Of a stretch of 64,000 nt of DNA, positions 40,043 to 61,899 are shown in pieces. This stretch comes from Halobellus clavatus. GTDB taxonomy: Archaea; Halobacteriota; Halobacteria; Halobacteriales; Haloferacaceae. A program made the translations under genes and the position numbers. The DNA is taken from positions 62,001-126,000 of the forward strand of contig NZ_FNPB01000009.1 in NCBI RefSeq assembly GCF_900107195.1, written 5' to 3'. Under the pieces are notes generated by a model. The model was not told the origin of the DNA. It did not search any database and was given only the letters and a program-made list of their open reading frames with translations. How positions within the stretch are numbered: position 1 is the first letter of the stretch; each line of letters begins with the position of its first letter.

Positions 40043-40127
40043 ATTTCAGTCTCGACTAAGACAATCGCTCACACGCAAAAATAACTACCGCACGGGGTGG
40101 TGCGTCCGAGCGCGTGCTTTCGCCGAG

Positions 40128-41147: not shown

Positions 41148-41211
41148 TGCTATCACCGATTAGATAAGCTTCGTTCCGAGTCGGACAAAATACTATCGGT
41201 GACGCCGGCGC

Positions 41212-42212
41212 TCGGAAGTACTGTTTCTCATTCCGAACGCGCTCGAGGACGTCGACGCCGAGTTGATCCAGAAGGTGAATCATATCGATGAACACCCAGT
41301 TCTCCGCCAGCAGGTCGCTCTCACGACGCCAGAAATCCATCACGCGCATTTCGACCGATTCGTCAGTTGCGGGCAGTCCCAACCAACCGTCGCCGAGGTG
41401 TGTCGCCTCAAGACTCGGCCACCCGGTCCACGCACAGTAGGTTCCCTCGGCCATTCGGATGTCGTCGCTGTCGGCTTCTCTGTCGGGGAAGGCTTCGAGG
41501 AACGGCTCCTGATGATACGCCTGGAACCCGTCGATCCCGCGGGTCGAGCCGATGCCGGCGGGGCCGTACCACATAAAATCCTCGTGCCAGTACTCGTCCA
41601 TCCCCATATTCTCGAGGCCCTCTTCCTCGTAGGATTCCAGCCCCTCGAAGATCATTCCCTCGACCAGTTCCAGCGTCTGCTCGGTTTCGGCGGCGTCCGC
41701 ACCGTCGAGGAGGACGCCGTCCTGCGTCGTCGCCCCGGGGATGACGACCTCTGGAGCGAGCGCGGGCACGAACTGATAGCCGGCCTGCCGCAGTACGTCC
41801 AGCACGTCGACGAACAGACGCGTCTCGGCGATCTTGCCGTCCTCGAACCGATGGAACGTGCCGTGCCTGAGCCACGTCGCGTGCCCGGTCGCGGGGACGT
41901 CGAGCCAGTCGTTCTCGAACGTCCCGACGAAGTTGCCGGCGGCACACACCCACGTACTGTCCCGAAACTCTCCGCCGAAGAGGATGTAATCGTTCTGTTC
42001 GAGGTCCGGGAACGATTCGAGGAGCGGCCCCCAATAGCCGCGACTGATCTCGTCGCGGCCGGTGAGCCGTCCGATCGGCGCGGGACCGTGCCACTCCGCG
42101 TCCGGATGGTAATATTCCTCCAATACGTCTCCGATCTGGTCGGCCCCGGTTCCCGGATCGTCCCAGAGAACTCGTGGACTCGGTCCTTGCACTGGCTGTA
42201 ATCGGAGCTCAT
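41212..42212 (-). pseudogene. Double-SnoaL-domain protein, paralogue 4 (frameshifted, stop lost)
   Basis: Two defects are seen. Near the start, MSSDYSQCKDRVHEFSGTIREPG is in one frame while the continuation GTGADQIGDVLEEYYHPDAE is in another, so a small indel lies at about 42140-42160. At the end, the position of the family stop (TGA after the aligned QYF) is CGA (41212-41214 on the plus strand read TCG), so translation would run on into DNA antisense or out of frame to the next copy. The body between is well conserved, including DFMWYGPAGIGSTRGIDGFQ, so decay is recent. Confidence 0.75.
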
Positions 42213-43168: not shown

Positions 43169-44068
43169 TTACTCTTCGCCGACCCGGTCTTCCAGTTCCT
43201 GCTCGAACATCTTCACGACCGCACCCACGTCTTCCTCGCCGAACCCCTCGTCGCTGGCTCGCGTGTACAGGCGGTGGACCAGGCTTCCCATCACCATCGG
43301 GAAGTCCTCCGAGTCCGCCATATCGACCGCGAGACCGACGTCCTTCCGCGCGAAGTCGACGCTGAACCCCGCCTCGAAGTCCCGTTCGAGCACGCGCGGC
43401 ATCCGGCTCTCGAAGGCGACCGAAGTCGCGCTCGCGTTCCCGAGGATGTCCCAGAGGCGCTCGCTGTCGATGCCGTACCGGGCGCCGAGCGCGACGGTCT
43501 CCATCGCAAGCAGCAGGTTCCCCATCGACATCGTGTTGTTCAGCAGTTTCATCGCGTGTCCGGCCCCCGAAGCACCGGCGTAGTGGAGTTCCGCACAGAG
43601 GGCCTGCAGCACGTCCTGTGCGTGCTCGGATTCGAAGACGGCCTCCTTGCCACCGACGAGGCCGGTGAGGGTCCCGTCGCGCGAGTTTTCCGGCCCGCCC
43701 GTGATCGGCGCGTCGAGAATCTCCGCGGGCGTCTCCTCGATCGCGTCGGCGACGACCTCGGTCGTCGGCGGTGCGATCGTGCTCATCTCCAGGAACGTAG
43801 TCTCGACGGACTCGTGCGCCAGTCCTCCCTCTCCGGTGTAGACGTCTTTCACGATGTCCGAGTTCGGCAGACTCGTGATCGTGACGTCACTCTGGCGGGC
43901 GACGTCGCGGCCGCTGTCGGCGACGATCCCGCCGTAGTCCGCGAACGCTTCGCGAGCCTCCGGCTGGAGGTCGTGTCCGTACACCTCGAAGCCCTCGTCG
44001 AGGAGGTGCTTCGCCATATTGCCGCCCATCTTGCCGAGTCCAACGACTCCGGAGGTGGTCTCAACCAT
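43169..44068 (-). CDS. 3-hydroxyisobutyrate dehydrogenase-like (beta-HAD) oxidoreductase
   Basis: This 299-aa protein has an N-terminal NAD(P) motif VVGLGKMGGNMAKHLL (about 8-23), the beta-HAD substrate motif DAPITGGPENSRDGTLTGLVGG and the catalytic Lys in GHAMKLLNN (about 172). Such enzymes oxidise 2- or 3-hydroxyacids such as tartronate semialdehyde, 3-hydroxyisobutyrate or sulfolactaldehyde-type compounds. It is followed by an aldehyde dehydrogenase on the same strand, whose gene begins upstream at 45593 (gap 76 bp). Own TATA-like ACATATAATAACG upstream. Confidence 0.92.
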   Translation of the reverse strand: MVETTSGVVGLGKMGGNMAKHLLDEGFEVYGHDLQPEAREAFADYGGIVADSGRDVARQSDVTITSLPNSDIVKDVYTGEGGLAHESVETTFLEMSTIAPPTTEVVADAIEETPAEILDAPITGGPENSRDGTLTGLVGGKEAVFESEHAQDVLQALCAELHYAGASGAGHAMKLLNNTMSMGNLLLAMETVALGARYGIDSERLWDILGNASATSVAFESRMPRVLERDFEAGFSVDFARKDVGLAVDMADSEDFPMVMGSLVHRLYTRASDEGFGEEDVGAVVKMFEQELEDRVGEE

Positions 44069-44144: not shown

Positions 44145-45593
44145 CTACTGGAAATTGTGGTAGACCGACTTGATCTGGGTGTACTTCAGCGCGCCGTGTT
44201 TCCCGTCTTCGCCGCCCAGCCCGGACTCGTTCCAGCCGATGTGGTGGCCCTGTTGTGCGCCGCCGCTCCCGTTGATGAACGTCTCGCCGAAGTCGAGGTC
44301 CTCCGCGACCTGCATCGCGTCCCGGTAGCTCTCGGTGAAGACGTAGGAGGAGAGCCCGTACCGCGAGTCGTTGGCGTACGCGACGGCCTGATCCACGGAA
44401 TCGACCTCGACGATGGGCGCGACTGGTCCGAAGACCTCCTCGCTGACGACGTCCATCTCCTGGTCGACGTCGCCGAGAACGGTCGGTTCCACCCAGTGCC
44501 CGTCAGAGGTGGGCGGCTCCGCGACCGACTCCCCGCCCGTCAGGACTGTTGCCCCCTGCTCGACCGCGCCTCGGATCGCCGCCTGTGTCTTCTCGAGTTC
44601 TCCCGCGCTCACCTGCGGCCCCATATCGGGGTCGTCTCTCGGATCGCCGATTTCGAGCGCCTCCATCGCCGCGACGAACTGCGCTTCGAACTCCTCGCGG
44701 ACGTCGGCGTGGACGTACACCCGCTCGACGCACGTACAGGCCTGTCCCGCGTTGATCGTCCGCGAGGCGACGATGTTCTCGACCGCGCTCTCGACGTCGG
44801 CGTCGTCGGCGACGATCGCGGGCGCCTTCCCGCCGAGTTCGAGCGAAACCCGGGTGAGGTCGTCGGCGGCGTTGCGCATTATCGCCTTCCCGGTCTCGAC
44901 GTTACCGGTCATCGTCACGTAGTCCACCTCGTCGTCGCTCACGAGACCGGCCCCGACCGCGCCGCCGCCGGTTACGACGTTCAAGACGCCCGGCGGGAGG
45001 TCGACCTCGCGGTCGAGGATGTCGACTAGTTCGAGCGTTGTCAGCGGCGTCAGCTCGCTCGGTTTCAGGACCGTCGTGTTGCCGGTGACGAGGGCCGGCG
45101 CGAACTTCCGGACGAAGACGGATATCGGGAAGTTCCACGGGATGATCCCCGCGACCACTCCGTACGGTTTCCGCACCAGATTGATCGACTGGCGCGGTTC
45201 GCTCCCCGGGACCACGTCGCCCTCGATCCGACGGTCCCACTCCGACATATACCGGGCGATGTCGGCGGCGGCACGGATCTCGTATTCGGCCACCGAGGAC
45301 GTCTTGCCCTGTTCGGTAACGAGGGTCTCGGCCAGCGTTTCGGCGTGGCTCTCGATGACGTCTGCGACCTCACGGAGCAGGTCCCCCCGCTCCTTCGCCG
45401 GGCGCCGTTCCCAGTCGGGTTGCGCGCTGCGGGCGGCCTCCGTCGCGCGCCGGACGTCTTCCTCCGTTCCGGACGGGACCGAATCCACTACCGCTCCCGT
45501 TGTCGGATCGGAGACGGGAATGCTGTCGTCGCTCGTCGGTGCGTGCCACTCGCCGTCGATATAGAGAGGCGTATCGCTGAACTCTGCAGTCAT
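44145..45593 (-). CDS. NAD-dependent aldehyde dehydrogenase (AldA-like)
   Basis: This 482-aa protein has IIPWNFPISVFVRKFAPALVTGNTTVLKP, the Glu in SLELGGKAP (about 251), the catalytic Cys in INAGQACTCVERV (about 284) and EVFGPVAPI. The ending GHHIGWNESGLGGEDGKHGALKYTQIKSVYHNF resembles lactaldehyde/glycolaldehyde dehydrogenase AldA. It oxidises an aldehyde to the acid; the precise substrate is unknown. It lies between the ABC importer and the beta-HAD enzyme. A TATA-like TAATTATTTA lies about 30 bp upstream of the start. Confidence 0.93.
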   Translation of the reverse strand: MTAEFSDTPLYIDGEWHAPTSDDSIPVSDPTTGAVVDSVPSGTEEDVRRATEAARSAQPDWERRPAKERGDLLREVADVIESHAETLAETLVTEQGKTSSVAEYEIRAAADIARYMSEWDRRIEGDVVPGSEPRQSINLVRKPYGVVAGIIPWNFPISVFVRKFAPALVTGNTTVLKPSELTPLTTLELVDILDREVDLPPGVLNVVTGGGAVGAGLVSDDEVDYVTMTGNVETGKAIMRNAADDLTRVSLELGGKAPAIVADDADVESAVENIVASRTINAGQACTCVERVYVHADVREEFEAQFVAAMEALEIGDPRDDPDMGPQVSAGELEKTQAAIRGAVEQGATVLTGGESVAEPPTSDGHWVEPTVLGDVDQEMDVVSEEVFGPVAPIVEVDSVDQAVAYANDSRYGLSSYVFTESYRDAMQVAEDLDFGETFINGSGGAQQGHHIGWNESGLGGEDGKHGALKYTQIKSVYHNFQ

Positions 45594-45762: not shown

Positions 45763-46638
45763 TCAGGAACTCACGGCGGCGGCCTTGAATCCAATCAAGC
45801 GGCCGATCAGCAGCACGAGGACCAGCACCAGTAAGATCTGAATCGAGGCGGTGGCCGCTACCAGCGGTGAGGACTCGTACTGCAGGAAGAGGAATATCTC
45901 GACCGGCAGCGTGGTCGAGCTCCCACTCGAGAGGAACAGCGCGACCAGCGAGTCCGTGAACGAGAGGATGAAGGCCAGCAAGAAGCCCGAGACGACTCCG
46001 CTTTTCATCAACGGAAGCGTTATCTTCCGGAACGCCTGGAACTTGGTCGCGCCGAGGTTTCGCGCCCCCTCGACGAGTTCGGTATCGACCGACTCGATCG
46101 CCGTCATCGCTGTAAGGAACGTGTACGGGATCGTGATGACCACGTGGCCCACGACGAGCTTTGCGGACGTCGGAACGAAATCCAGTAAGTTGAAATTGAG
46201 CGTTATCATCAGCGCGAGCGCGATGATCGCCGGTGGAATGATGAGCGGGGAGATGAAGTACATCACGACCTCGTTCTCGAACGGGACGTCACGGCGGACG
46301 ACGACGTACGCGGCGAGGATCCCGAGGATCGTCGAGATCGTGGCGGTGGCGATCGCAATCGGTAGGCTCACGAAAAAGAACGGCTCGAAGAACGGGCTCA
46401 CGAGGAACTCCTGATACCAGCGCAGGGAGATCCCCGACGGGGGGAATGCCTGCGACTGGGTCGGGTTGAGCGAGATGCCGATCACGATTATGATCGGAAG
46501 GACCAGTGTCGATACCGCGAGTCCGAGCAGCCCGTAGTAGAGCGCTCGGCCGGCTACGACCGCCGGAGTCGAGAGCGACCGCGAGTTTCGGCCGGTCAGT
46601 ACGGCCGAAAGCACGCTCATAATGGCCATCAGTCCCAT
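45763..46638 (-). CDS. ABC transporter permease (PotC-like)
   Basis: This 291-aa membrane protein has about six helices and the permease loop ESVDTELVEGARNLGATKFQAFRKITLPLM (EAA-type motif), characteristic of PotC/spermidine-putrescine family permeases. The start at 46638 overlaps the end of the PotB-like gene by 10 bp (ATG inside the last codons), as expected for coupled translation. It is the last gene of a four-gene importer operon. Substrate not known; polyamine, ferric or sulfonate families share this fold. Confidence 0.92.
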   Translation of the reverse strand: MGLMAIMSVLSAVLTGRNSRSLSTPAVVAGRALYYGLLGLAVSTLVLPIIIVIGISLNPTQSQAFPPSGISLRWYQEFLVSPFFEPFFFVSLPIAIATATISTILGILAAYVVVRRDVPFENEVVMYFISPLIIPPAIIALALMITLNFNLLDFVPTSAKLVVGHVVITIPYTFLTAMTAIESVDTELVEGARNLGATKFQAFRKITLPLMKSGVVSGFLLAFILSFTDSLVALFLSSGSSTTLPVEIFLFLQYESSPLVAATASIQILLVLVLVLLIGRLIGFKAAAVSS

Positions 46639-47534
46639 TCTGAAACCCCCATTCGGTCGCGGACGAATGAAAAGTAGATGTACACAAGCGCTGTAGTCGT
46701 GATCGTCAGGACCGTCCCGACGGCGCTCGCGAAGGGCCAGTTGAGACCGTTCACGGCGCTGTCGTATATCAACCGCCCCATAGTCAGGTCAGAACGGCCG
46801 CCGAGCAAGTCAGGGGTCACGATGGAGTTCATCGTGAGGACGAACACGAAGATGGTCCCGGTGAGTAGACCGGGCAGGCTCAGGCGGAAGGTCACCTTGT
46901 AGAACGCCTGGAGCTGGTTCGCGCCGAGGTTTCGCGCGGCCGGGACGAGCGAGTCCGGAATGTCTTCGATCGAGGAGTAGACGGGGAGGACGACGAGCGG
47001 GAGGTATACCCCGATTAGACCGATCGTGACCGACAGCGTGTTCCCCAAGAGTGCGAGTTTGAAACCCAGCAGATCTTGGAGGACGGTGTTGATCACGCCG
47101 TTGGTAGCGAACAGAACGATCCACCCGTAGATGCGGACCACCGTCCCGACCATAAGCGGGAGGAAGACCGCGAACAGCGCCAACTGACGACGCAGCGGGG
47201 TGGTCGTTGCGATAAAGTACCCGAGTGGATACCCCAGTATCACACAGAACGCGGATACGATGAGCGACAGCCTGACCGTGTACCAGAGCAGTCCTTGGTA
47301 GAAGGGGTCGAACAGGAGCTGTTCGTAGTGTTCGAGGGTGAAGTTCCACGAGATGATCGTCGTCGCGCTGTACTCGAAGAAGCTGATGTACACCGCATAG
47401 AGGATCGGGAGGATCAGGAAAATCAGCAGGTACGCCGCCGGTGGCACGGCCGGAAGGTACTCGTCCAGCCAGTCCGAGACCCGGTTTGGCCGATCGAATA
47501 AGTTGCCCGTGTAATCGGTGATTGCGCCCAACAT
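46629..47534 (-). CDS. ABC transporter permease (PotB-like)
   Basis: This 301-aa permease has an N-terminal cytoplasmic tail, about six helices and the EAA-type motif DSLVPAARNLGANQLQAFYKVTFRLSLPG. It is partner of the PotC-like permease. It is separated by 1 bp from the ATPase gene (stop at 47536), overlaps the PotC-like gene by 10 bp, and lies in the operon solute-binding protein, ATPase, PotB, PotC. Confidence 0.92.
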   Translation of the reverse strand: MLGAITDYTGNLFDRPNRVSDWLDEYLPAVPPAAYLLIFLILPILYAVYISFFEYSATTIISWNFTLEHYEQLLFDPFYQGLLWYTVRLSLIVSAFCVILGYPLGYFIATTTPLRRQLALFAVFLPLMVGTVVRIYGWIVLFATNGVINTVLQDLLGFKLALLGNTLSVTIGLIGVYLPLVVLPVYSSIEDIPDSLVPAARNLGANQLQAFYKVTFRLSLPGLLTGTIFVFVLTMNSIVTPDLLGGRSDLTMGRLIYDSAVNGLNWPFASAVGTVLTITTTALVYIYFSFVRDRMGVSEWD

Positions 47535-47535
47535 A

Positions 47536-48573
47536 CTACGCCTCCACGAGCCCGTAGTCCTCGAACTGGACGGTCACGCTGTCACCTTTGGTGTACTTCG
47601 GTGCGCCCAGGTCAGTGGTGAGGAACTCGTTGCCACCGACTTCGATCTTGTACTCGGTTACCGAGCCAAGGTGGACTGTGCTGCGGACGGTCCCGGAGAA
47701 GACTCGGTCCCCATCGGAGGGGTTGATAGTGATGTCTTCGGGCCGAATGTAGAGGAGATCCGTGGGTGCGTCAGCGTCCGCCTCGTGCATCGGCAGCGAG
47801 ATGTCGTCGTCTTCGAACGTCACGGTACCGTTCTGACCCTTCGTGACAGAGACGAAGTTCGAGTCGCCGACGAAGTTCGCGACGAACTTCGACTGTGGGT
47901 CCTGGTAGATCTCCGACGGAGGCGCGTACCGGACCTTCTCACCCTCGTGAAGCACGAGCACGCGGTCAGACAGCGTCAGTGCCTCGCGCTGGTTGTGTGT
48001 CACGTAGATTGACGTGATCTCGAGCCGGTCGTGCAGGTCTTTGATCTCACGGCGCATCTGCTCGCGGAGCTGGCGGTCGAGGTCCGAGAGCGGTTCGTCG
48101 TAGAGGAGCAAGTCGGGCTCCAGGACGAGGACGCGGGCCAGCGCGACGCGCTGTTGTTCCCCGCCGCTCAAGTTCTGGATATTACGATCTTCGTAGCCTG
48201 GCAGTGAGACGATCTCGAGGATCTCGGCGACGCGCTCTTCCATCTCTGCCTCCGTGAGGTTCTCCCGATGTCGGAGCCCGAACGCCACGTTGTCGAACAC
48301 AGACATATGCGGAAACAGAGCCAGGCGCTGGAACACGAGCCCCATATTTCGGTCCTCGGGCGGGAGCCCGATCATTTCGTTCCCGGCGACGACGATGCTC
48401 CCCGCGGTGGGGTCGACGAATCCGGCGATCGACTTCAGCATCGTCGTCTTCCCGGATCCCGACGGCCCGAGAATCGAGACGAACTCGCCTTCCTCGATGT
48501 CTAATGAAACATCGTTCACTGCGACGACGTCCCCGTACGATTTTCGGAGGTTCTGAATGTTTACGAATGCCAT
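47536..48573 (-). CDS. ABC transporter ATPase (PotA-like)
   Basis: This 345-aa protein has Walker A ILGPSGSGKTTM (35-46), signature LSGGEQQR, Walker B LLLYDEPLSDLD and a C-terminal TOBE domain (RPEDITINP...GTVRSTVHLGSVTEYKIEVGG), as in PotA/FbpC-type importers. The ATG at 48573 (MAFVNIQNLRKSYG) is preferred over a longer frame. It energises the adjacent permease pair. It is terminated by TAG, showing amber codons serve as ordinary stops here. Confidence 0.94.
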   Translation of the reverse strand: MAFVNIQNLRKSYGDVVAVNDVSLDIEEGEFVSILGPSGSGKTTMLKSIAGFVDPTAGSIVVAGNEMIGLPPEDRNMGLVFQRLALFPHMSVFDNVAFGLRHRENLTEAEMEERVAEILEIVSLPGYEDRNIQNLSGGEQQRVALARVLVLEPDLLLYDEPLSDLDRQLREQMRREIKDLHDRLEITSIYVTHNQREALTLSDRVLVLHEGEKVRYAPPSEIYQDPQSKFVANFVGDSNFVSVTKGQNGTVTFEDDDISLPMHEADADAPTDLLYIRPEDITINPSDGDRVFSGTVRSTVHLGSVTEYKIEVGGNEFLTTDLGAPKYTKGDSVTVQFEDYGLVEA

Positions 48574-48662
48574 TTCTGGATTATAGCTTGAGATTGGCTG
48601 GATATTATTTATTCTTTGCGGAGAAAATACACCACGCACAGACGCGCTGACGGGTGTCGGTA

Positions 48663-49850
48663 TTACGCGCCAGCGATGATTTTCTTGAAGCGCTGGCCGT
48701 CTTCCTGCTTCTGCTGTTCCACTTGGAGCCAGTCGATACCGACGTCGTACCGCTGTCTCTGTTCCTCGGTGGGGCTGATCATCGGATGTTTCTCTTTGAC
48801 TTCTTCAGAGATCATCTCGGTCGCGGCCGGGTTAGCCGGCGGGTAGCCCATAATCTCGGCGAACTTGGCCTGCGGTTCGGGAGCCAGATTACCGTTTCCA
48901 GCTATTTTGGCCTGCTCGAGGCGGTCCTCGCTGGTGTGCTTCGTGATCGGGTAGCCCCAGTAGTCCTGGACGCATCCACCCTCAGGGACCGAGAAGCCCA
49001 TCGGGAGGCCCTCGTCGATCTCAATGTTCTCGGCTCGCGCCGAAAGGAATGGCGCGACGTACATCTCGTCGTTCAGATAGAGAGACCGAGCCTGGTCGAT
49101 CGAGTCGAAAATGATGGGATCGGTCGTCTCGACGAACTCACGGAGCCATTCCAACCCTGGTTCGATGTTGTCGAGCGAACCGCCCTTGATCTTGTTGATG
49201 ACGTAGAAGTACTTCGAGCCCGCGTTGTCCCAGGGCTCGAATCCGACTTTCCCCTCGAGATCGGGGTCGATGAGCGAATCCCACGTATTGAATTCTTTGT
49301 CGGTCTTGTCCTCCCGGTAGGCGATCCCACGCGGGAAGTAGACAGTCCCGCCCATATACTCGTTCTTGAACGCAGGCGGGATGTCGTCGTAGTTATCGAA
49401 CTCCGTCTGTTTGATCAGGGCGTCGTTCTGTCCGAGAAGTTCGGCGCGCTGCCCGTCCAGTTCGACGAGTTCGTAGTTCGGATTCTCCGGATCGCGTTTC
49501 AGCTCCGCCGTGTACTGTTCGGACGAAGCGGTGATGTACTTGTAATTGTATTCCTCTTCGTACGGCGGCTCACCGTTTGCGAACGGCTCGAAGAACGCCG
49601 CCTGGCGGTCCTCTCCCCAGCTGCCGCCGCCACCGCCGACGCGGACGACTGCCTTGTCGCCACCGGAGCTGCCGCCGCTGGAGCTGGTGGTACTTCCGTC
49701 ACCGGAACCGCTGTCGCCGCTACCACTGTCGCCGTCGGACGAGCCACCGCCGCCGCCACCGGAACAGCCGGCAAGTCCTGCGACTCCAGTCCCTGCGGCA
49801 AGTGCTTTGACCACTTTTCTCCGAGACAGCGGGCTGTCATTGACACCCAT
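48663..49850 (-). CDS. Extracellular solute-binding lipoprotein (PotD-like)
   Basis: This 395-aa protein begins SRRKVVKALAAGTGVAGLAGCSG, a Tat-type lipoprotein signal with LAGC lipobox (Cys about 31), then a Gly/Ser/Asp/Thr-rich linker of about 40 residues typical of halophile binding proteins, and a PotD/FbpA-like body (VVRVGGGGGSWGEDRQAAFFEP, GKVGFEPWDNAG, YLNDEMYVAPFLSARAENI). It is the receptor of the importer; first gene of the operon, with an AT-rich promoter at about 49865-49905 and a palindromic operator beyond. Confidence 0.92.
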   Translation of the reverse strand: MGVNDSPLSRRKVVKALAAGTGVAGLAGCSGGGGGGSSDGDSGSGDSGSGDGSTTSSSGGSSGGDKAVVRVGGGGGSWGEDRQAAFFEPFANGEPPYEEEYNYKYITASSEQYTAELKRDPENPNYELVELDGQRAELLGQNDALIKQTEFDNYDDIPPAFKNEYMGGTVYFPRGIAYREDKTDKEFNTWDSLIDPDLEGKVGFEPWDNAGSKYFYVINKIKGGSLDNIEPGLEWLREFVETTDPIIFDSIDQARSLYLNDEMYVAPFLSARAENIEIDEGLPMGFSVPEGGCVQDYWGYPITKHTSEDRLEQAKIAGNGNLAPEPQAKFAEIMGYPPANPAATEMISEEVKEKHPMISPTEEQRQRYDVGIDWLQVEQQKQEDGQRFKKIIAGA

Positions 49851-49941
49851 AGGTAGGGATATACATAGTACTACTAAAACATTTTCAAATATATATGATA
49901 CTATCCCCGAACAGAGACGCACAAGTGGGACCGAACATTTT

Positions 49942-49958: not shown

Positions 49959-50018
49959 TAAGACGTTGGCTCCGCGAGAACAACAAGATTGTTAATGCGT
50001 CGCACCGAATTCCGTGGT

Positions 50019-50789
50019 ATGGCTCAACACGACAACACCCTCAAATCGGTCGACAAAGTGTTCAAGATGGTTGAACACCTCAAAACCAACGGTGGAAAAA
50101 CGGTCACAGAACTATCACAGGAGCTAGATATGCCGAAAAGTACTGTACAGGTCTATTTGAATACCCTGGCGAAGAACAAGTTCGTCGTACAGAACGGTGC
50201 GACGTACCAGATCGGTCTGCAGTTCCTGCAATATGGAATGTACGCGCTCTGGAACGAACCCGTGTTCCCGAACGTCAAATCGAAAGTCGAGGAACTGGCG
50301 GACACGACGGGTGAACTGGCGGCCTGCTTCGTAGAGGAACTCGGAGAGGCCGTGTACGTCTATGGGACGGAAGGAAATCGGGCGATCCGAACAGACCTCA
50401 CAATGGGTGATCGGTCGGGACTCCACTGTACAGCCAGCGGGAAGGCGATATTCGCCCATCTCTCACAGGAGCGAATCGAAGAGATCATCTCACAGCGATC
50501 GCTAGAGCGGAAGACGCCACAGACGATCACGGACCCCGACGAGCTGCGAGAGGAGCTAAAACAGATACGCGAGCGGGGTCACGCGTACTCCAAGGAGGAG
50601 TCTGTCGAGGGGATGCGCTCGGTCGCTGCACCAATCCTGCTCGACGGAGAGGTCGTCTGCTCGATTAGTCTCGCCGGACCCGCAAACCGCTTCGTCGGCG
50701 AGCGGTTCACATCTGAGGTACCGGACATCGTGAAGGGTGCAGCCAACGAGATCGAACTGAAACTGACATATTCCGAGAGCGGGCTGTAG
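50019..50789 (+). CDS. IclR-family transcriptional regulator
   Basis: This 256-aa protein has a winged helix NTLKSVDKVFKMVEHLKTNG, ELDMPKSTVQVYLNTLAKNK (residues 5-55) and an effector domain with HCTASGKAIFAHL, RERGHAYSKEESVEGMRSVAAPI and SISLAGPANRF. The ATG at 50019 is preferred over an upstream one that precedes a non-conserved tail. It is divergent from the importer operon and is followed, 14 bp after its stop, by a pair of palindromic operators and then the LigM-like gene. Confidence 0.93.
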   Translation: MAQHDNTLKSVDKVFKMVEHLKTNGGKTVTELSQELDMPKSTVQVYLNTLAKNKFVVQNGATYQIGLQFLQYGMYALWNEPVFPNVKSKVEELADTTGELAACFVEELGEAVYVYGTEGNRAIRTDLTMGDRSGLHCTASGKAIFAHLSQERIEEIISQRSLERKTPQTITDPDELREELKQIRERGHAYSKEESVEGMRSVAAPILLDGEVVCSISLAGPANRFVGERFTSEVPDIVKGAANEIELKLTYSESGL

Positions 50790-50802: not shown

Positions 50803-50899
50803 ATAACAAGTGTACATATATTATAAATATTCTTGACGGCAGTGTCTCAAGTGCACTCCACCGGCAGAATGCAAATTATAACATATGTACATTTGTTAT
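50803..50899. promoter_or_regulatory. Two tandem 22-bp palindromic operators
   Basis: Site 1 (50803-50824) and site 2 (50878-50899) each have ATAACA at the left, a central GTACAT and TTAT at the right (site 2 has the full TGTTAT). Their centres are 75 bp apart, about seven helical turns. A third copy lies at 61878-61899. The sites are upstream of the LigM-like gene (start 51196) and downstream of iclR; dimeric binding by an IclR is likely (inference). Confidence 0.7.
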
Positions 50900-51195: not shown

Positions 51196-52548
51196 ATGGC
51201 TGACCGAAGCCTACAGACAGCTCTAGATGCAGCTCAGGATCCAGTGGGAATGCTCCAACAGGCCGGCGGTCGGTGGGTCTGGCCGCAGGAAGTAAAACGC
51301 GAGTACACGAACTGGATGGACGAGCTTCGCGCCGCCCGCGAAACGTGTGTGTTGGCGGATCTCTCACACCACCAGATGGACCAAGTGATCGAGGGTCCCG
51401 ATTCGTTCGACCTTCTCAAGAAGCTCTGTACGAACAGCTTCGAGGGATTCGACGTCGGGAAAGCCAAGCAAGCCATTTTGTGTAATCCCGACGGCAAATT
51501 CATCGGAGACGGAGTACTGCAGCGACTCGAGGAACAGAAATTCGTGATGAGCGGAAAAATCCCCGCCGCCCACTGGCTCGCCTACCACGCTGAGACGGGT
51601 GAGTACGACGTCAGCGAAACGATCTATCCGAAGTCCTCGAAGACCGACGACGACCCGCACTACTACACCTACCAGGTCCAGGGACCGAACGCGCTCGACG
51701 TGATGCAGGAGATCGTCGACGAGTCTCTCACTGACATCCCGTTCTTCAATTTCAAGCGGATTTCCATCGCGGGCGAAGAGGTTCGCGCACTCCGTCACGG
51801 AATGGCCGGCGAGATTGGCTTCGAACTACAGGGCCCCTACGAACACGCCGACCTGATCAAAGACGTAATCCTCGAAGCGGGAGAGGAATACGACATCCAA
51901 CGGCTCGGGACCCGTGCGTACGAACCGCTGAGTGTGAAGCTCGGCTGGGTCACGACGCACGTCCCCGCGATATACACCGGCGAAGAGATGGCAGAGTACC
52001 GCGAGTGGCTGAGCGCGAGTAGCTACGAAGGCACGTATTCGATCGCTGGAAGCTACCACTCGGATGACATTCGTGATTACTACGTGAGTCCGATCGATAT
52101 CGGCTACGACCATATGGTCGAGTTCGACCACGACTTCGTCGGACGGGAGGCCCTCGAAACCGAGGCAGCAGACCCCGATCGGACACGCGTGACGCTCGTC
52201 TGGGACGACGAGGACGCGATCAGAATCTTCGCATCGCTGTTCGATGACGACGCACTCCCGAACAAGTTCATCGATCTTCCGCGCGATCGGTGGGGCGGCC
52301 ACCACGACAAAGTGCTCAAAGACGGCGAGATCGTCGGCATCTCGAAGAGCTTCGCGTACTCCTACAGTGATCGGGAGATGATTTCCATCTGCTCGATCGA
52401 TCGAGAATACAGCGAACCCGGGACAGAGGTCAGTTTCGTCTGGGGTGAAGAGGGTGGTCAATCACCGAATCCAACGGTGGAGACACATTCGCAGACGGAG
52501 ATATCCGCGACAGTCGCACCAAGTCCGTACCTCGACGACGCACGATAG
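51196..52548 (+). CDS. LigM-like folate-dependent O-demethylase (GcvT family)
   Basis: This 450-aa protein of the aminomethyltransferase fold is closer to vanillate/3-O-methylgallate demethylase LigM than to GcvT, as seen in LADLSHHQMDQVIEGPDSFD, IGDGVLQRLEEQKFVMSGKI, PAAHWLAYHAETGEYDV, RALRHGMAGEIGFELQGPYE, PAIYTGEEMAEYREWLSASSYE, YYVSPIDIGYDHMVEFDHDFVGREALE and the tail SIDREYSEPGTEVSFVWGEEGG. LigM moves a methyl group from a methoxyarene to tetrahydrofolate. Length fits LigM (about 470). The probable TATA box at 51165-51173 lies about 25 bp upstream, so the message is probably near-leaderless. The substrate in this organism is not proven; aromatic or aliphatic methyl ethers are possible. 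Confidence 0.82.
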   Translation: MADRSLQTALDAAQDPVGMLQQAGGRWVWPQEVKREYTNWMDELRAARETCVLADLSHHQMDQVIEGPDSFDLLKKLCTNSFEGFDVGKAKQAILCNPDGKFIGDGVLQRLEEQKFVMSGKIPAAHWLAYHAETGEYDVSETIYPKSSKTDDDPHYYTYQVQGPNALDVMQEIVDESLTDIPFFNFKRISIAGEEVRALRHGMAGEIGFELQGPYEHADLIKDVILEAGEEYDIQRLGTRAYEPLSVKLGWVTTHVPAIYTGEEMAEYREWLSASSYEGTYSIAGSYHSDDIRDYYVSPIDIGYDHMVEFDHDFVGREALETEAADPDRTRVTLVWDDEDAIRIFASLFDDDALPNKFIDLPRDRWGGHHDKVLKDGEIVGISKSFAYSYSDREMISICSIDREYSEPGTEVSFVWGEEGGQSPNPTVETHSQTEISATVAPSPYLDDAR

Positions 52549-52953
52549 AGTGAGTTCGGTGACGACTATCGTCTGGTTCGTCGCTTTCGTAGGTGAAGTC
52601 CGGTATTTTTGATCGGTGTAGCCTAAATTATGGGTCCGCACGATCAGCAGTGGACTCGGTTGGGGAATCAGGAGTCATTGATTTACTGGTGATCCCCGCT
52701 CTGGTGGACTTCGCCAACCGTGATTACGGCCATACGAAAATACCGCTACCAAGTTCTTTGTTGATACCAACTCTCTGCAGTAACGTTCCAGATCGTTCTG
52801 AATGGAGTTCGACTTGGTAAGTAACGCTTCAGTACTGGTCAAGAGACAGCTAGCGACCCAAATATGTCTATTAGTAATATTAATAACCTATACAATTATT
52901 GCAGGTTAGTATATTTATACCCCATTTCCAGTAGTGCACTTAGATGGCCAGCA
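52549..52953. other. Intergenic region with promoter of tdh
   Basis: No ORF is supported. The last 100 bp are AT-rich and contain TAACCT-N12-AGGTTA (about 52884-52907), a 6-bp inverted repeat, and a TATA box at 52911-52919, 35 bp before the tdh start. Confidence 0.5.
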
Positions 52954-53889
52954 ATGGATACCATACTAGTCACTGGAGCACTCGGTCAGATCGGCTCCGA
53001 ACTCACGCCGGCGCTCCGAGATCGATACGACGACGTAAGGATAGTAGCCAGCGATATCGAATCCGGTCCGGATGTGTCGCAACCGTACGAGACAGTCGAC
53101 GTGACGGACCGCTCGCAGGTTGAGGCAGTCGTGGAAAAATATGACGTCGATACCGTATTCCACCTAGCAGCCCTGTTGTCTGCTGCTGGCGAACAGAACC
53201 CCGATAAAGCATTCGAGGTGAATATCCAGGGATTGTACAACGTCCTCGAAGTCGGGCGGGAGTACGGACTCAACCGCATCGTGGTCCCGAGTTCGATCGC
53301 GGTGTACGGGCCTGCGACTCGGAACAATCCGTCCGAGCGCGCAATCAGATCGCCCACGACGATGTACGGAATAAGCAAGGTTCTGGCGGAGAATCTTGCT
53401 ACATACTACTACCAAACATATGATTTGGACGTTCGCGGAATCAGACTCCCAGGGATCGTGAGTCACAAAACCAGACCAGACGGCGGGACGACTGACTACG
53501 CCGTCGACGCCTTCTATGAGGCGATCGATACGGGTGAGTACACCTACTTCGTCCGGAAGGACACGCGACTCCCGATGGTCTATATGGCCGATGCAATCGA
53601 CGCGATCATCACCCTCTCAGAGGCAGACAAATCGGACCTGCGGTTCCAGTGTGAGTACAACATCTCCGGATTGAGTTTCACCGCAAGCGAGTTGAGCGAG
53701 CGGATCGAAGAGCGAATCGGGAGATTCAACGCCCGGTACGAACCCGATGGACGGCAGTCGATCGCGGATTCGTGGCCGAGCACGCTCGACGATTCGGCCG
53801 CCCGATCCGACTGGGGCTGGTCTCCTGAGTACGACCTCGACAGACTCGTAGACGAGATGGTTCGCAATCTCCAGCGGAAGGTCAAATGA
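52954..53889 (+). CDS. tdh: L-threonine 3-dehydrogenase, SDR type
   Basis: This 311-aa protein belongs to the extended-SDR family of threonine dehydrogenases. Marks are the NAD motif VTGALGQIGSEL (about 6-17), VDTVFHLAALLSAAGEQNP, the catalytic VPSSIAVYGP Ser and TMYGISKV Tyr/Lys (about 138-145), and the family signatures RLPGIVSHKTRPDGGTTDYAV, RLPMVYMADAIDAI and ADSWPSTLDDSAARSDWGWSPEYDL. It oxidises threonine to 2-amino-3-oxobutyrate, used by KBL from the next gene. The ATG at 52954 is chosen; upstream residues are not protein-like. Confidence 0.92.
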   Translation: MDTILVTGALGQIGSELTPALRDRYDDVRIVASDIESGPDVSQPYETVDVTDRSQVEAVVEKYDVDTVFHLAALLSAAGEQNPDKAFEVNIQGLYNVLEVGREYGLNRIVVPSSIAVYGPATRNNPSERAIRSPTTMYGISKVLAENLATYYYQTYDLDVRGIRLPGIVSHKTRPDGGTTDYAVDAFYEAIDTGEYTYFVRKDTRLPMVYMADAIDAIITLSEADKSDLRFQCEYNISGLSFTASELSERIEERIGRFNARYEPDGRQSIADSWPSTLDDSAARSDWGWSPEYDLDRLVDEMVRNLQRKVK

Positions 53890-54049
53890 ACGCTGTTGTA
53901 GCTCAATCACGGACTGATCCACCGGATCACCGTGATAAGCCGGCGAGGAGAGGTCGCTCTCGATACCCCATCCAGAGTATTCTATCGAAACCAAGGGCCG
54001 AAGGACAGTTCATCAACGAAACGGCCGAAACAATCAGAAAACACAATTT

Positions 54050-55231
54050 ATGACGAAAGAAACGACTGCATACCTGCGCGAGAAGTACGAGAAGATGAAC
54101 GAGCGAGACGAAACGTGGCCGCTCAAGCAACTGGAGACGGCATCCCAAGCGAGGCCGATCGTCGAGGGACAAGAGGTGATTATGCTCGCCTCGAACAACT
54201 ACCTGGACCTGGCGAACGATGTCCGTCTCCGGGAAGCGGCGGGGGACGCAATCGAGAGATTCGGTGTCGGTGCGGGATCTGACTGGTCTATCGCGGGGTA
54301 CACGGAACTCCAGGACGAGCTCCACGACGCCATCGCCGAATTCAAAGGAACCGAGGGAGGACTGTCCTATCAGACCGGATTCGCGGTGAACGCCGGCCTA
54401 CTCCCACAGTTGCTGGACGACGGTGACGTGTACGTCTCCGACGAATACAATCACGGGAGCATCATCGACGGAATCCGACTGTCGCCTGCTGATACCCGCG
54501 TGTACGAACATTCAGATATGTCGGATCTGGAGCGAGTGCTACGGTCGGCAAGCACCGAGTACAATCGGATCATCGTGGTGACCGATGGGGTGTTCTCAAT
54601 GGATGGCGACGTGGCAAAACTCGACGAGATCCACCGCCTCGCCGAGGAGTACCAAGCGATGACATACGTCGACGACTGTCACGGTGAAGGGGTTCTGGGT
54701 GACGGCCACGGCATCACGGCCGAGTTCGGTCTCGAAGAGGAGATTGACTTTCAGATGGGTAGTTTCTCGAAAGCCTGTGGCGGGTTCGGTGGAATGCTCG
54801 CTGGCGATCAACACGTCGTAGATTTCGCGTATAACACATCGAGGACGTGGTTGCTGAGCGCTGGGTATCCCCCTGCCGTCGCAGCCGCAAACAAGCGCGC
54901 TCTCGAGATTATCGACGACGAACCGGAACGCGTCCGGGACCTGTGGAGCAAACGGGAGTACTTCCAGTCCGAATTGGAGGACCTAGGATACGATACTGGA
55001 GCGAGCGAAACACCCATTGTGCCAGTGATGATCGGTGACAGTAAGACGGCCAAAGAGCTTGCCGAGCGGCTGTTTGAGAGGGGGGTGTTTGCTCTCTCAA
55101 TCGTCTATCCGATGGTGCCACGCGGAGAGGCACGGATCAGGAATCAAATAAACGTCGGGCTCACCGAGGCGGACCTCAACGAAGCCTTACGAGTCTACGA
55201 GAGAGTCGGTCGAGAACTCGACATCATCTAA
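54050..55231 (+). CDS. kbl: 2-amino-3-ketobutyrate CoA ligase (glycine C-acetyltransferase)
   Basis: This 393-aa alpha-oxoamine synthase has the PLP Lys in MGSFSKACGGFGG (about 240), ASNNYLDLANDVRLREAA, SDEYNHGSIIDGIRLS, YVDDCHGEGVLG and RLFERGVFALSIVYPMVPRGEARIRNQI. With TDH it converts threonine to glycine plus acetyl-CoA; the glycine can enter the gcv operon at 30-36 kb. It is 160 bp downstream of tdh, so cotranscription is likely. No defect seen. Confidence 0.93.
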   Translation: MTKETTAYLREKYEKMNERDETWPLKQLETASQARPIVEGQEVIMLASNNYLDLANDVRLREAAGDAIERFGVGAGSDWSIAGYTELQDELHDAIAEFKGTEGGLSYQTGFAVNAGLLPQLLDDGDVYVSDEYNHGSIIDGIRLSPADTRVYEHSDMSDLERVLRSASTEYNRIIVVTDGVFSMDGDVAKLDEIHRLAEEYQAMTYVDDCHGEGVLGDGHGITAEFGLEEEIDFQMGSFSKACGGFGGMLAGDQHVVDFAYNTSRTWLLSAGYPPAVAAANKRALEIIDDEPERVRDLWSKREYFQSELEDLGYDTGASETPIVPVMIGDSKTAKELAERLFERGVFALSIVYPMVPRGEARIRNQINVGLTEADLNEALRVYERVGRELDII

Positions 55232-55341: not shown

Positions 55342-56286
55342 TTAGTAATAGACTCGCTCGAGGTTGTCGATACCGCCGATCCACTGGTGATCGTCGCCGT
55401 CGCTGATGTCGTTTTCCTCCCAGGCGACGGGCTCCCAGTGCGGATCCAGCGTGAGGTAGCTCCCCGTATTGAACTCGATTCGGTGGCTGCTCGTCGGATC
55501 ACGAGCGTACATAAACTCCCCGCGGGAGATGCCGTGCTGGCCGATCCCGTCGACCGGAACGTCGTTCTCGTTCATCACGTTGTGTGCCGCAAAGAGGTCG
55601 TTCGGGGTGTCGACGCCGTACGCGACGTGGTGGACGGCAGGTTCGTCGTCCGCACTGCTGGATTGGACGACCGCGAGGTCAATCTTCACCCCGCAGGCGC
55701 TGAGGAACGTTCCCCACCGCGTGCCGTCGGCCTCGTCGTAATACTCCTGGACCTGGAACCCGAGCTCTTCGCGGATCCACTCCGCACACTCGAACCCGTC
55801 AGGGTCCCAAATCTGGAGGTGATCGATCCGGTGGGGTGCGATCGGATTGTTGTCCGAGGGGTCGTACACGCGGTTCTTGAGCTTCGAGCGGCGCTCGACC
55901 GGCGGATCGGGTTTCTCCATCTCGCCGTAGAGCTCGAACTGGTGGCCGTTCGGAACCTCGAACCGGATCGCCTCGCCTTGACCGGGTTCGACGCCATCGT
56001 CGATCCAGGTCACGTCTATCCCCCGGTCGGCGAACCGGTCTGCGAACGCCGCCACGTGTTTGGGGGCTTCGGTCTGCCAACCGATATGATCGATCCGCGA
56101 GCGCTCGGCCTCGGTCAGGCTGAGCGAGTGGTGGTCGTACTCGTCGACGGCTCTGAGGTAGACGCTGTCGTCGTCTCTGTCGACGATTTCCAGTCCAACC
56201 GTCCCGTGGAAAAATTCGATCGACGATTCGAGATCCGATGTCTCAAGCGCTACGTGGCCTAGTCGTGCGACTTCAAGCTGCATCAT
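55342..56286 (-). CDS. Extradiol ring-cleavage dioxygenase (catechol 2,3-dioxygenase-like)
   Basis: This 314-aa protein has two VOC (beta-alpha-beta-beta-beta) modules. The C-terminal one carries probable Fe(II) ligands: His in HRIDHLQIWDP, His in PAVHHVAYGVD and Glu in SHRIEFNTGSY. It matches the type I extradiol dioxygenase family that cleaves catechols. The start at 56286 (two adjacent ATGs) follows AATTTATTAC on the minus strand, a TATA-like box. It lies next to an HpaI-type aldolase and another VOC protein, suggesting meta-cleavage of an aromatic (inference). Confidence 0.87.
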   Translation of the reverse strand: MMQLEVARLGHVALETSDLESSIEFFHGTVGLEIVDRDDDSVYLRAVDEYDHHSLSLTEAERSRIDHIGWQTEAPKHVAAFADRFADRGIDVTWIDDGVEPGQGEAIRFEVPNGHQFELYGEMEKPDPPVERRSKLKNRVYDPSDNNPIAPHRIDHLQIWDPDGFECAEWIREELGFQVQEYYDEADGTRWGTFLSACGVKIDLAVVQSSSADDEPAVHHVAYGVDTPNDLFAAHNVMNENDVPVDGIGQHGISRGEFMYARDPTSSHRIEFNTGSYLTLDPHWEPVAWEENDISDGDDHQWIGGIDNLERVYY

Positions 56287-56353
56287 TCGTCGGTGACAGG
56301 ACCACACGTAATAAATTTCCTGTCGAGCGGTCCGGAGTGAGACCGCAGCGGTC

Positions 56354-57136
56354 TCAGTCGTCACCGCGGACCGCGCTCAGTCGGGGGCCGAGAGTCCGCT
56401 TGATCGATCCGAGATCGCCCCCGATACGCAGGATCTGGTAGCCTTGCGCCTCGGCTTCGGCGATGCGCTCGGGGTCAGTCCTGATCCCGCCGACGGGCAC
56501 GTCGGCCTCAAGGCAGGCCTCCCGGATCGAGTCAATCTGGGCGACCACTTCCGGATGATTCTTGTCCTCCGGGTGGCCCATCTGGACCGAGAGGTCCGAG
56601 AGACCGATGAAGACGAATCCCAGTTCCGGGACGTCGAGGATCGCCTCGAGATCGTCGACGGCGGTCGTCCTCTCGATCATCACGCCGAGACAGACCGACT
56701 GGTCTTCGGTCGCGACGTAGTCGCTCGCGGCGCCCCAGTTGCTGGACCGGCCGCTTGCCTTGCCGCGCTCGCCCGGCGCACCGTCGTAGACGAAGCGGGT
56801 GGCCTCAACCGCGGTCCGCACCTCCTCGGCGGAGTCGACACGCGGGATCAGCAGGTTTCGGACGCCAGCGTCCAGCACCTTTCGGATGAGCGGCGGATCG
56901 CCGGAAGGGAGCCGAACGATGAGTTCGGTCCCGCCGGCTTCTGCGGCGCGCGTGAGATCCTCGAAGACGCGGCTGTCGTACGGGCTGGGCCCCATATGCT
57001 CGAAGTCGAGCCAAGCGAAGTCGACGCCGAGCGTGCCATACACTTCGATGACGGTCGGCGAGAAGGTCGAGGCACGTGCGCCGTAGACGACTTCGTCGTT
57101 CTAGAGGGCCTCGCGTAAGCTGTTGCTCTGGTTCAT
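56354..57136 (-). pseudogene. HpcH/HpaI-type aldolase with in-frame TAG at codon 12
   Basis: The frame from ATG 57136 reads MNQSNSLREAL-stop, then without shift NDEVVYGARASTFSPTVIEV and the full aldolase body, including DFAWLDFEHMGPSPYD (metal/His motif), RLPSGDPPLIRKVLDAG, GVMIE and FIGLSDLSVQMGHP. The TAG lies at 57101-57103 (plus-strand CTA). Restarting at a GTG within IEVYG (57043) would drop the first barrel strand and the YGAR region, so a functional short form is unlikely. Either a recent nonsense mutation, readthrough, or a sequence error. HpaI splits 4-hydroxy-2-oxo acids, in keeping with ring-cleavage products. Confidence 0.8.
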
Positions 57137-57219: not shown

Positions 57220-57585
57220 TCAGTCTTGGTCGGTAACGATCTGGAACCGACGGCCGTCGGGGTCACGGAAATTCGTGATCGTGCGGCCGGTCTTGTCCAC
57301 GTCGTAGGGACCGACGATCGAGTCGATCTCGGCATCTTCGAGGTCTTCGGTCACGCCGTCAATATCCTCGACGGCGAAAGCGATGTGGTTGATGCCCGGC
57401 ACCTCTTCGCCCTCGACAGTGTGGATCTCGAAGAGTGGTCCCTCGCCGTCTGCGGGCACGTACTCGTAGGACTCGCCGTGATGCTCGGTCTGACGGTGCT
57501 GCTCGTATCCGAGTTTCTCGAAGAACTCGGCCATCTCGTCGGCGTCGCTCGCTTCGATCTCGATGTGGTCGATCGTTCCAATCAC
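57220..57585 (-). CDS. VOC-family (glyoxalase-like) protein
   Basis: This 121-aa protein begins (GTG at 57585) VIGTIDHIEIEASDADEMAE and has PGINHIAFAVEDIDGV and ITNFRDPDGRRFQIV, a single VOC module with probable His/Glu metal ligands. Such proteins are isomerases, lyases or dioxygenases. The GTG is preferred because it gives the usual family start; it is preceded by a TATA-like ATTTATATAC on the minus strand (about 57606-57618). Its substrate is probably related to the neighbouring dioxygenase/aldolase path. Confidence 0.85.
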   Translation of the reverse strand: MIGTIDHIEIEASDADEMAEFFEKLGYEQHRQTEHHGESYEYVPADGEGPLFEIHTVEGEEVPGINHIAFAVEDIDGVTEDLEDAEIDSIVGPYDVDKTGRTITNFRDPDGRRFQIVTDQD

Positions 57586-57716
57586 GGATGGAGGTGCTCG
57601 GCCATAGTATATAAATAATTGCTTGTAGTCATTTGTTGTTGATATCCACCCGGAAACACGAGCTCTATGGGAGGAGCTACCAGTCCATTCGTCTTCCGTC
57701 CGTTCCCCGTATGGGG

Positions 57717-58175
57717 TCACTCCCGACGTACATACGTGACCGGACAGGGAGCGTTCAGTAGCACCTGTTGGGCGTAGTCGCCGAACATCGCCTTGCCGGT
57801 CGGCGACCTCCCCCGCCCGCCGATGAAGACGCGGTCGACCTCCAGGTTCCGGGCCGTCCGCACGATCTTCGTGTCCGGTGTACCGACCGCACCGCGAATC
57901 TCGTAGTCGATTTCCCGCTCGTCCAGTTGCTCCGCGGGGGTTCGGATCGCCTCGTGACGTGCTGCGAGTTGACTCACCCCGAACGACTCTGCGTCCGGGC
58001 TGACGTCCAACTGGTCGATGAGGTTGTCGTACTCCTCCTGCGGGAAGACGTGCTGTATGTACAACGTGGCTCCAGTCGGCTCCACTAACTGCAGAGCCAC
58101 GTCCAACAATCGCTGTACGTGTTCACGATCCTTCGGACCGAACGCGAGCAGTACGCTATCGACTGACTCAGGCAT
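57717..58175 (-). CDS. Universal stress protein (UspA family)
   Basis: This 152-aa protein begins VDSVLLAFGPKDREHVQRLL and has IVRTARNLEVDRVFIGGRGR, then SPTGKAMFGDYAQQVLLNAPCPVTYV, where the GGRGRSP-type ATP-binding loop (G-x2-G-x9-G-S/T) is largely kept. The start at 58175 is chosen over a longer frame. Usp proteins often ride along with catabolic or stress genes; no specific role is visible. Confidence 0.88.
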   Translation of the reverse strand: MPESVDSVLLAFGPKDREHVQRLLDVALQLVEPTGATLYIQHVFPQEEYDNLIDQLDVSPDAESFGVSQLAARHEAIRTPAEQLDEREIDYEIRGAVGTPDTKIVRTARNLEVDRVFIGGRGRSPTGKAMFGDYAQQVLLNAPCPVTYVRRE

Positions 58176-61061: not shown

Positions 61062-61841
61062 ATGGCGGACGAATCCCCGCGCAAAATACAGTCCTTGGAG
61101 ACGGCTCACCGTATCACCGAAGCACTCCAAGAGCTGGATGGAGCCGGCGCCAGTGCTATCGCGGATCGCCTGGACATCGGTCGGAGCACGGCGTATCAGT
61201 ACCTGATGACGCTCCGGGAAGAGGGGTACGTCACCAAACGCGAGCAAACGTACCACATCGGGCTGAAATATCTGGATCACGGAATGTACGCCCGCGACAA
61301 CCATCCGATGATCGAGATCTCGCGACCATCGCTGCGTGATCTGGTGGACGAAACCGGTGAGATCGGATGGTGTACGAGCGAGGACAACGGGAAACTGGTG
61401 ACGCTGGATATCATCGAAGGAGACCGGAATCTGAATACGAAGTTCAGCGGTCGGATCGGGAACAGAGAGTACATGAACGCCCACGCCGGTGGAAAGGCTA
61501 TCTTGTCAGGGTACAGTGATAGTCGGATTATGGAAATTATCGATGCGCACGGGATGCCCTCGTACACGGAGCAAACGATCACTGACGAAGAAGCGCTCCT
61601 AGCCGAGATCGAACGGGTGCGCGAGAAGGGAGTCGCGTTCAACGACGAGGAGGCGATCGAAGGCTATCGGGCCGTGGGAGCGCCCGTCACGTTGGACGGT
61701 GAGACGATCGGATCGATCACTATCGGGGGGCCAAAGAACCGGATGCCCGACGAGTACTTCGAGGAGACGCTCCCTGATCTCATCCGAGGCGTCATCAACG
61801 AGATCGAACTCCGCGGCTCGGTGTCCTCTCCGTGGGAGTAA
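61062..61841 (+). CDS. IclR-family transcriptional regulator
   Basis: This 259-aa protein has a winged helix QSLETAHRITEALQELDGAG, RLDIGRSTAYQYLMTLREEG (residues 10-55) and an effector domain with NAHAGGKAILSGY, REKGVAFNDEEAIEGYRAVGAPV and SITIGGPKNRMP. It is similar in layout to the IclR at 50019. A 22-bp palindrome lies 37 bp after its stop and precedes the acyl-CoA ligase gene, the same order as at 50.8 kb (iclR, operator, catabolic gene). Confidence 0.93.
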   Translation: MADESPRKIQSLETAHRITEALQELDGAGASAIADRLDIGRSTAYQYLMTLREEGYVTKREQTYHIGLKYLDHGMYARDNHPMIEISRPSLRDLVDETGEIGWCTSEDNGKLVTLDIIEGDRNLNTKFSGRIGNREYMNAHAGGKAILSGYSDSRIMEIIDAHGMPSYTEQTITDEEALLAEIERVREKGVAFNDEEAIEGYRAVGAPVTLDGETIGSITIGGPKNRMPDEYFEETLPDLIRGVINEIELRGSVSSPWE

Positions 61842-61877: not shown

Positions 61878-61899
61878 ATAACATATATACATATGTTAT
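61878..61899. promoter_or_regulatory. 22-bp palindromic operator, third copy
   Basis: ATAACATAT-ATAC-ATATGTTAT gives perfect 9-bp arms; one more flanking base on each side also pairs. It matches site 2 at 50878-50899 in outer arms and centre (TATGTACAT versus TATATACAT). It lies 437 bp before the acyl-CoA ligase start and 37 bp after the IclR stop. Confidence 0.7.

Follow-up and report, generated by a model that had tools for sequence, protein, structure and literature searches.

A LigM/DesA-family protein encoded near ring-cleavage genes of the haloarchaeon Halobellus clavatus is a probable THF-dependent aryl O-demethylase

The locus described here raises the question of whether a haloarchaeon encodes a folate-dependent enzyme that demethylates methoxylated aromatic compounds or whether its gene specifies one of the other proteins built on the same folate-binding domain. 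The gene lies in a plasmid-like region and within the window, a stretch of 64,000 nucleotides from the 3.75-Mb, 30-contig genome assembly of H. clavatus (Table 1). The original prediction read the product as LigM-like, favored LigM/DesA over GcvT on the strength of short motifs, and proposed a phylogeny and a structure prediction as checks. Our answer is that the protein, a member of the LigM/DesA family, is probably a THF-dependent aryl O-demethylase that would act within a haloarchaeal meta-cleavage pathway.

Sequence matches and family placement

The open reading frame is intact, with an ATG start and zero internal stops across its 450 codons, and orthologs at 72 to 96% identity are about equal to it in length. 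Its closest named relatives are genes of Halobellus limi and Halobellus rarus, which are 96% identical and lie in syntenic neighborhoods; that of H. limi sits on a 208-kb plasmid, where the public annotation of the ortholog (WP_103992714.1) is merely "aminomethyltransferase family protein." The protein is strongly acidic, D plus E making up 18.7% of its residues versus 11.5% in LigM of Sphingobium SYK-6. Every motif named by the original prediction (among them SHHQMD, GDGVLQ, and LRHGMAGEIG) is present in the translation. A Pfam search returned GCV_T (E = 7e-41), a folate-binding domain common to this protein and to GcvT, DmdA, and dimethylglycine oxidase. The best-scoring NCBIfam model was DesA (480.8 bits; E = 3e-144; residues 5 to 450), and LigM matched the whole protein (437.6 bits; E = 6e-131), versus 67.5 bits (E = 9e-19) for GcvT, 50.2 bits for DmdA, and 100.2 bits for sarcosine oxidase. 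LigM entries were the sole full-length matches in the PDB (E = 1.5e-109; residues 4 to 449; 42% identity), and identity was 38% to DesA-equivalog sequences and 18 to 25% to GcvT, DmdA, and dimethylglycine oxidase. The equivalog cutoffs stand higher than these scores, at 800 bits for DesA (NF047633), 580 for LigM (NF047885), 236 for GcvT (TIGR00528), and 410 for DmdA (NF009133).

The tree (66 rows; IQ-TREE; LG+C20+F+G4) took in solved GcvT, DmdA, DMGO, and DMGDH references and the GcvT-, DmdA-, and DMGO-type proteins of the host genome, together with SYK-6 LigM, two DesA-equivalog sequences (824 and 814 bits), bacterial relatives, and haloarchaeal paralogs; BrdA, SesA, and the dicamba demethylases were left out. 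A 100/100 branch split the 52 LigM-like rows from the 14 GcvT/DmdA/DMGO/DMGDH rows and placed the H. clavatus protein on the LigM/DesA side. Profiles, PDB match, and tree thus bear out the preference for LigM/DesA over GcvT, and the phylogeny puts the protein outside the GcvT and dimethylglycine-type clades. Its ortholog group, with members in Halobellus, Salinigranum, Halobacterium bonnevillei, and Halorubrum vacuolatum, was supported at 100/99. Bacterial LigM and DesA share a different nested clade, away from this haloarchaeal one, and the protein falls neither inside that bacterial clade nor beside it as a sister. With groups named after the tree had been seen, a constraint joining the ortholog group to the bacterial LigM/DesA clade was rejected (p-AU 0.006), and placing the group as the first branch of the family, together with the outgroup, was weakly rejected (p 0.03). 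The LigM-like reading of the original prediction consequently holds for family membership but not for orthology, since both equivalog cutoffs are missed and the joint grouping is rejected: the protein belongs to the LigM/DesA family and is neither LigM proper nor DesA proper. For the same two reasons, neither vanillate nor syringate can be named as its substrate.

The labels GcvT and DmdA are excluded by score and tree alike, and that of a dimethylglycine oxidase or dehydrogenase by the tree and by a length of 450 amino acids with no FAD domain; the true GcvT, DmdA-like, and DMGO-like proteins of the host are encoded by separate genes. It is accordingly very improbable that an aminomethyltransferase (T protein) or a dimethylglycine/sarcosine-type domain has been mis-scored here through the common folate fold. 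The GCV_T domain is indeed shared, but the GcvT equivalog score is 67 bits against a cutoff of 236, the clades are separated at 100/100, a true GcvT (406 bits) is encoded in the gcv operon of the same window, and a catalytic Tyr stands where GcvT has Arg.

Other genes of folate-linked or neighboring families were noted in the window. On the minus strand, positions 10600 to 11967 encode a DmdA-clade protein (147 bits to the Pelagibacter DMSP demethylase 3tfh; 235 bits to NF009133, below the cutoff of 410), which from its sequence is possibly a DMSP-type or other demethylase in a haloarchaeon; a second DmdA-clade copy is on contig C18 (L012). What appears to be a complete glycine cleavage operon (GcvT, H, P1, P2, and Lpd) occupies 28779 to 35911 (minus strand) together with the MetE-II-like methionine synthase gene that comes after it, and four or five SnoaL-like ("ester cyclase") genes, also conserved in H. 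limi, are arrayed at 37144 to 42192 (minus strand). At the matching site of the H. limi plasmid, the MetE-like gene lies directly beside the SnoaL genes, with no gcv genes.

Predicted fold and active site

A Foldseek search with an AlphaFold2 model of the protein (14 sequences; pLDDT 87; pTM 0.87) returned 16 LigM chains first, at TM 0.87 to 0.94. The top match was the LigM-vanillate complex 5x1j (TM 0.94 over about 450 residues), and DMGDH and GcvT came after the LigM chains at TM ~0.65, so that the structure prediction, like the phylogeny, came down on the side of LigM. The model contains the LigM fold, including its specialized C-terminal part.

Active-site residues were compared in an alignment to LigM numbered by the 5x1i offset. 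The catalytic Tyr247 and the folate residue Glu215 of LigM are kept as Y242 and E210, both invariant among the orthologs; His60 and Trp256 are likewise kept, as H59 and W251. GcvT proteins have Arg at the position of Tyr247, and the solved GcvT, DmdA, and dimethylglycine oxidase references have no Tyr there. The substrate pocket, judged from aligned positions alone, differs from that of LigM at R122 (Lys121, which keeps the charge), Q57 (Leu56), Y31 (Trp29), and V120 (Ser). Arg122, a feature of LigM proper that the H. clavatus protein does not have, contacts the substrate carboxylate in LigM. The corresponding position is non-basic in seven of the seven host paralogs, two distant ones of which (L007 and L008) also have no equivalent of Tyr247. 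Judged by this alignment, the protein is the most LigM/DesA-like among the host paralogs in retaining a positive charge at the carboxylate-holding site.

The same residues bear on a further reading, that of a THF-dependent demethylenase opening methylenedioxy rings in the manner of BrdA and SesA. These enzymes belong to the same superfamily, and demethylenation likewise yields catechols for a dioxygenase (PMC5547118). However, BrdA is only 26.7% identical to LigM (PMC5547118) versus 42% identity to LigM and 38% to DesA for the present protein, which also keeps the LigM catalytic residues; we regard demethylenation as improbable and O-demethylation as the better account.

Gene neighborhood and its conservation

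Genes for regulation, ring cleavage, and transport surround the demethylase-like gene (Table 1).

Table 1. Features of the locus, in window coordinates
Feature	Coordinates	Strand	Remarks
LigM/DesA-family THF-dependent O-demethylase-like protein, 450 aa	51196..52548	+	Profiles, PDB match, tree, residues, AlphaFold/Foldseek
IclR-family regulator, best profiles BhcR and PcaR/PobR type	49989..50789	+	Upstream of and parallel to the demethylase gene
Palindrome ACATATGTACATTTGT	50881..50896	.	Between the IclR and demethylase genes; probable IclR operator
Type-I extradiol dioxygenase (catechol 2,3-dioxygenase/HpaD family)	55342..56364	-	Metal ligands H182, H245/H246, and E297 present
HpaI-family aldolase gene	56354..57136	-	ATG at 57136; mechanical ORF 56354-57043
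Small VOC-superfamily protein, constant neighbor of the aldolase gene	57220..57720	-	
ABC transporter solute-binding protein SBP_bac_8, putative substrate uptake	48663..49922	-	Syntenic in Halobellus and Salinigranum
ABC transporter ATPase and two permeases (Pot/Phn type)	45763..48639	-	
Aldehyde dehydrogenase	44145..45593	-	Syntenic in Halobellus
3-Hydroxyisobutyrate-dehydrogenase-like (HIBADH-like) NAD(P) oxidoreductase	43169..44068	-	Syntenic in Halobellus and Salinigranum

A weaker second copy of the palindrome (50806 to 50821) lies 75 bp upstream of the first. The window holds five matches to the palindrome versus 0.03 expected, both strands counted, and the block is aligned at the same position across the orthologous intergenic regions compared. 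A search of the window found no palindrome upstream of the dioxygenase operon. Because the dioxygenase and aldolase genes are oriented toward the demethylase gene and lack such a palindrome upstream, their coregulation with it is putative. A similar palindrome (61881 to 61896) was seen directly behind another IclR gene (61062 to 61841). The demethylase gene is separated from the dioxygenase and aldolase genes by a pair encoding an epimerase-type L-threonine dehydrogenase and a KBL-type PLP enzyme (52864 to 55231, plus strand), likely a threonine-to-glycine route, which we did not count in the pathway. The aldolase frame carries an in-frame TAG at codon 12 (57103 to 57101), where the compared orthologs have no stop; this may be a true nonsense mutation or a sequencing error, and a second, full-length HpaI gene is present on another contig (C18). 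The aldehyde dehydrogenase could possibly oxidize the aldolase product or a ring-fission semialdehyde.

IclR, HpaI, and VOC genes were found near all examined orthologs of at least 72% identity, which come from four genera (Halobellus, Salinigranum, Halobacterium with H. bonnevillei, and Halorubrum with H. vacuolatum). Most copies also have the extradiol dioxygenase nearby, namely, those of the window, H. limi, H. rarus, Salinigranum, and H. bonnevillei. In Salinigranum, the dioxygenase, aldolase, VOC, hydroxyacid dehydrogenase, and MTHFR genes all fall within ~5 kb of the ortholog, MTHFR being ~4 kb off. The dioxygenase beside the ortholog of another Halobellus genome (G093; L048:10910-11290) is a pseudogene with stops, with homologs elsewhere in that genome; none was found beside the ortholog of a further Halobellus (L047) or, up to the contig end, in H. 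vacuolatum. The interrupted local aldolase, together with a dioxygenase that is broken in one Halobellus relative and absent beside the ortholog of another, indicates that the pathway is not under uniform selection.

Some of these neighbors would also suit a LigM-fold THF-dependent demethylase of a small aliphatic methylated compound, for instance a methyl ether or a compatible solute of the sulfonium or ammonium type. The Pot-type ABC transporter would import this compound, and the aldehyde dehydrogenase and HIBADH-like enzyme would process it. Transporters and enzymes of these kinds serve for small aliphatics, the protein differs from LigM in the aromatic-carboxylate pocket at Y31, Q57, and R122, and the host genome has many other GCV_T superfamily genes. 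However, the ABC transporter and HIBADH-like genes are common to Halobellus and Salinigranum only, whereas the partners that stay constant across genera are the HpaI aldolase and the VOC protein and, mostly, the extradiol dioxygenase; moreover, the DmdA and DMGO/DMGDH lineages form separate clades. An aliphatic substrate thus appears unlikely to us, and the preferred reading remains aryl O-demethylation, with which the fold, the catalytic residues, the dioxygenase and aldolase neighbors, and the linkage to MTHFR all fit.

Folate genes, proposed pathway, and known systems

The host genome holds eight LigM-like genes and eight other GCV_T-domain genes. There is no MTHFR gene at the locus itself, but one LigM-like paralog lies 257 bp from an MTHFR match, on an island that also carries a second LigM-like gene, acyl-CoA ligases, a thioesterase, an amidohydrolase, a branched-chain-type ABC transporter, an HpaI aldolase, and an extradiol dioxygenase and that shows synteny with genes annotated on an H. 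limi plasmid. The MTHFR homologs are distant from the curated equivalog (58 bits versus 294, for the matched stretch only). A FolD gene is present in the host genome. Related islands occur on Halostagnicola and Halosolutus plasmids, the former with FolD, PabAB, and FolP. PabA/PabB genes were also seen near dioxygenase or LigM-like genes in haloarchaea at L111:15085-18515 (with FolD as well) and L112:7850-9984; such neighbors suggest that folate synthesis is tied to these islands.

Co-occurrence was counted in 392 haloarchaeal genomes drawn evenly, many of the genomes in the counts coming from Halobellus, with a threshold of >400 bits for the dioxygenase subfamily. LigM-like genes were present in 22 of the 392 genomes (11 of 86 genera), MTHFR homologs in 101, and the dioxygenase subfamily in 15. 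All 15 dioxygenase-positive genomes had a LigM-like gene (Fisher p = 4e-22, uncorrected for phylogeny), and MTHFR was found in 21 of 22 LigM-positive versus 80 of 370 LigM-negative genomes (Fisher p = 1e-12, uncorrected for phylogeny). In the LigM-positive genomes, 17 of 23 dioxygenase genes and 13 of 33 MTHFR genes lay at most 12 kb from a LigM-like gene. Synteny and co-occurrence strengthen the functional claim without proving it.

From these data we infer a demethylating activity that could proceed as follows. THF would be bound in the GCV_T folate domain, with Glu210 in the role of LigM Glu215, and the pocket beside it would hold a phenolic substrate that is methoxylated and probably anionic. 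Tyr242, the counterpart of LigM Tyr247, would serve in methyl transfer to N5 of THF, giving a catechol-type compound and 5-methyl-THF. The neighboring type-I extradiol dioxygenase would then open the catechol, and an HpaI-type aldolase, whose local copy is interrupted and whose full-length paralog is on another contig, would cut the ring-fission product. The MTHFR homolog is predicted to oxidize 5-methyl-THF to 5,10-methylene-THF, with FolD acting next, and the local IclR regulator may switch the demethylase gene through the upstream palindromes.

The nearest characterized relative is LigM, the vanillate/3-O-methylgallate O-demethylase of Sphingobium SYK-6 (PDB 5x1i-5x1n and 5tl4), which the protein resembles in full-length homology, fold, catalytic Tyr, folate Glu, His60, and Trp256. 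The two differ in clade, in the residues at R122 (Lys), Q57 (Leu), and Y31 (Trp), and in the haloarchaeal host; furthermore, the dioxygenase near the H. clavatus gene is a type-I (VOC) extradiol enzyme, whereas that of the LigM system is LigAB/DesB. Coupling to MTHFR is common to LigM and the haloarchaeal lineage, and in SYK-6 MTHFR was reported to work in the oxidative direction (PMC12585457). The syringate O-demethylase DesA is alike in length, architecture, and catalytic residues but nests with LigM in the bacterial clade, unlike the present protein. Parallel gene clusters are found on pAt2 of Agrobacterium fabrum (dioxygenase, hydratase, HpaI-type aldolase, LigM-like, and MTHFR genes) and on pRop44186_a of Rhodococcus opacus (LigM-like, MTHFR, PurU, FolD, and ring-cleavage dioxygenase genes), although in bacterial hosts and with other dioxygenase types; no functional tests of either were found in the literature searched.

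The original prediction held that the gene would bring methoxyarene demethylation to a hypersaline archaeon. Such demethylation is not new to archaea, as methanogens, exemplified by Methermicoccus shengliensis, have an established corrinoid system for it, Mto (PMC8630106), but a folate-dependent, aerobic haloarchaeal route would be new. Mto uses corrinoid methyltransferases, passes the methyl group to H4MPT, operates in an anaerobic methanogen, and consists of unrelated proteins. Five archaea, all of them halophiles, are listed as degraders of aromatics in the eLignin review; their substrates are benzoate, cinnamate, phenylpropanoate, 4-hydroxybenzoate, or phenol, and no methoxylated one is named (PMC6486533). 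Our literature search found neither a haloarchaeal folate-dependent O-demethylase nor a paper on Halobellus with MTHFR, although absence from the searched literature is not proof. The protein is a haloarchaeal version of an enzyme type already known, encoded in what appears to be an unrecognized catabolic island.

A broader proposal seems to us evenly poised between holding and failing. It states that Halobellus and scattered other haloarchaea have islands, many of them on plasmids, with which they demethylate methoxylated aromatics aerobically onto folate and degrade them by meta-cleavage; that these islands comprise several LigM-like paralogs, MTHFR, FolD, PabAB, CoA ligases, extradiol dioxygenase, and HpaI aldolase; that the H. 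clavatus protein founds a distinct haloarchaeal clade of demethylases, its pocket being Lys-Trp-Leu and its substrate one unused by known LigM/DesA enzymes; and that methoxyarenes serve as a source of both carbon and C1 units in brine. If true, the folate-type route would extend the turnover of lignin-derived methoxy carbon to hypersaline, oxygenated settings and would offer salt-stable demethylases. The patchy distribution of MTHFR among haloarchaea would then be tied to a function, and these organisms would gain a direct C1 source for their folate metabolism.
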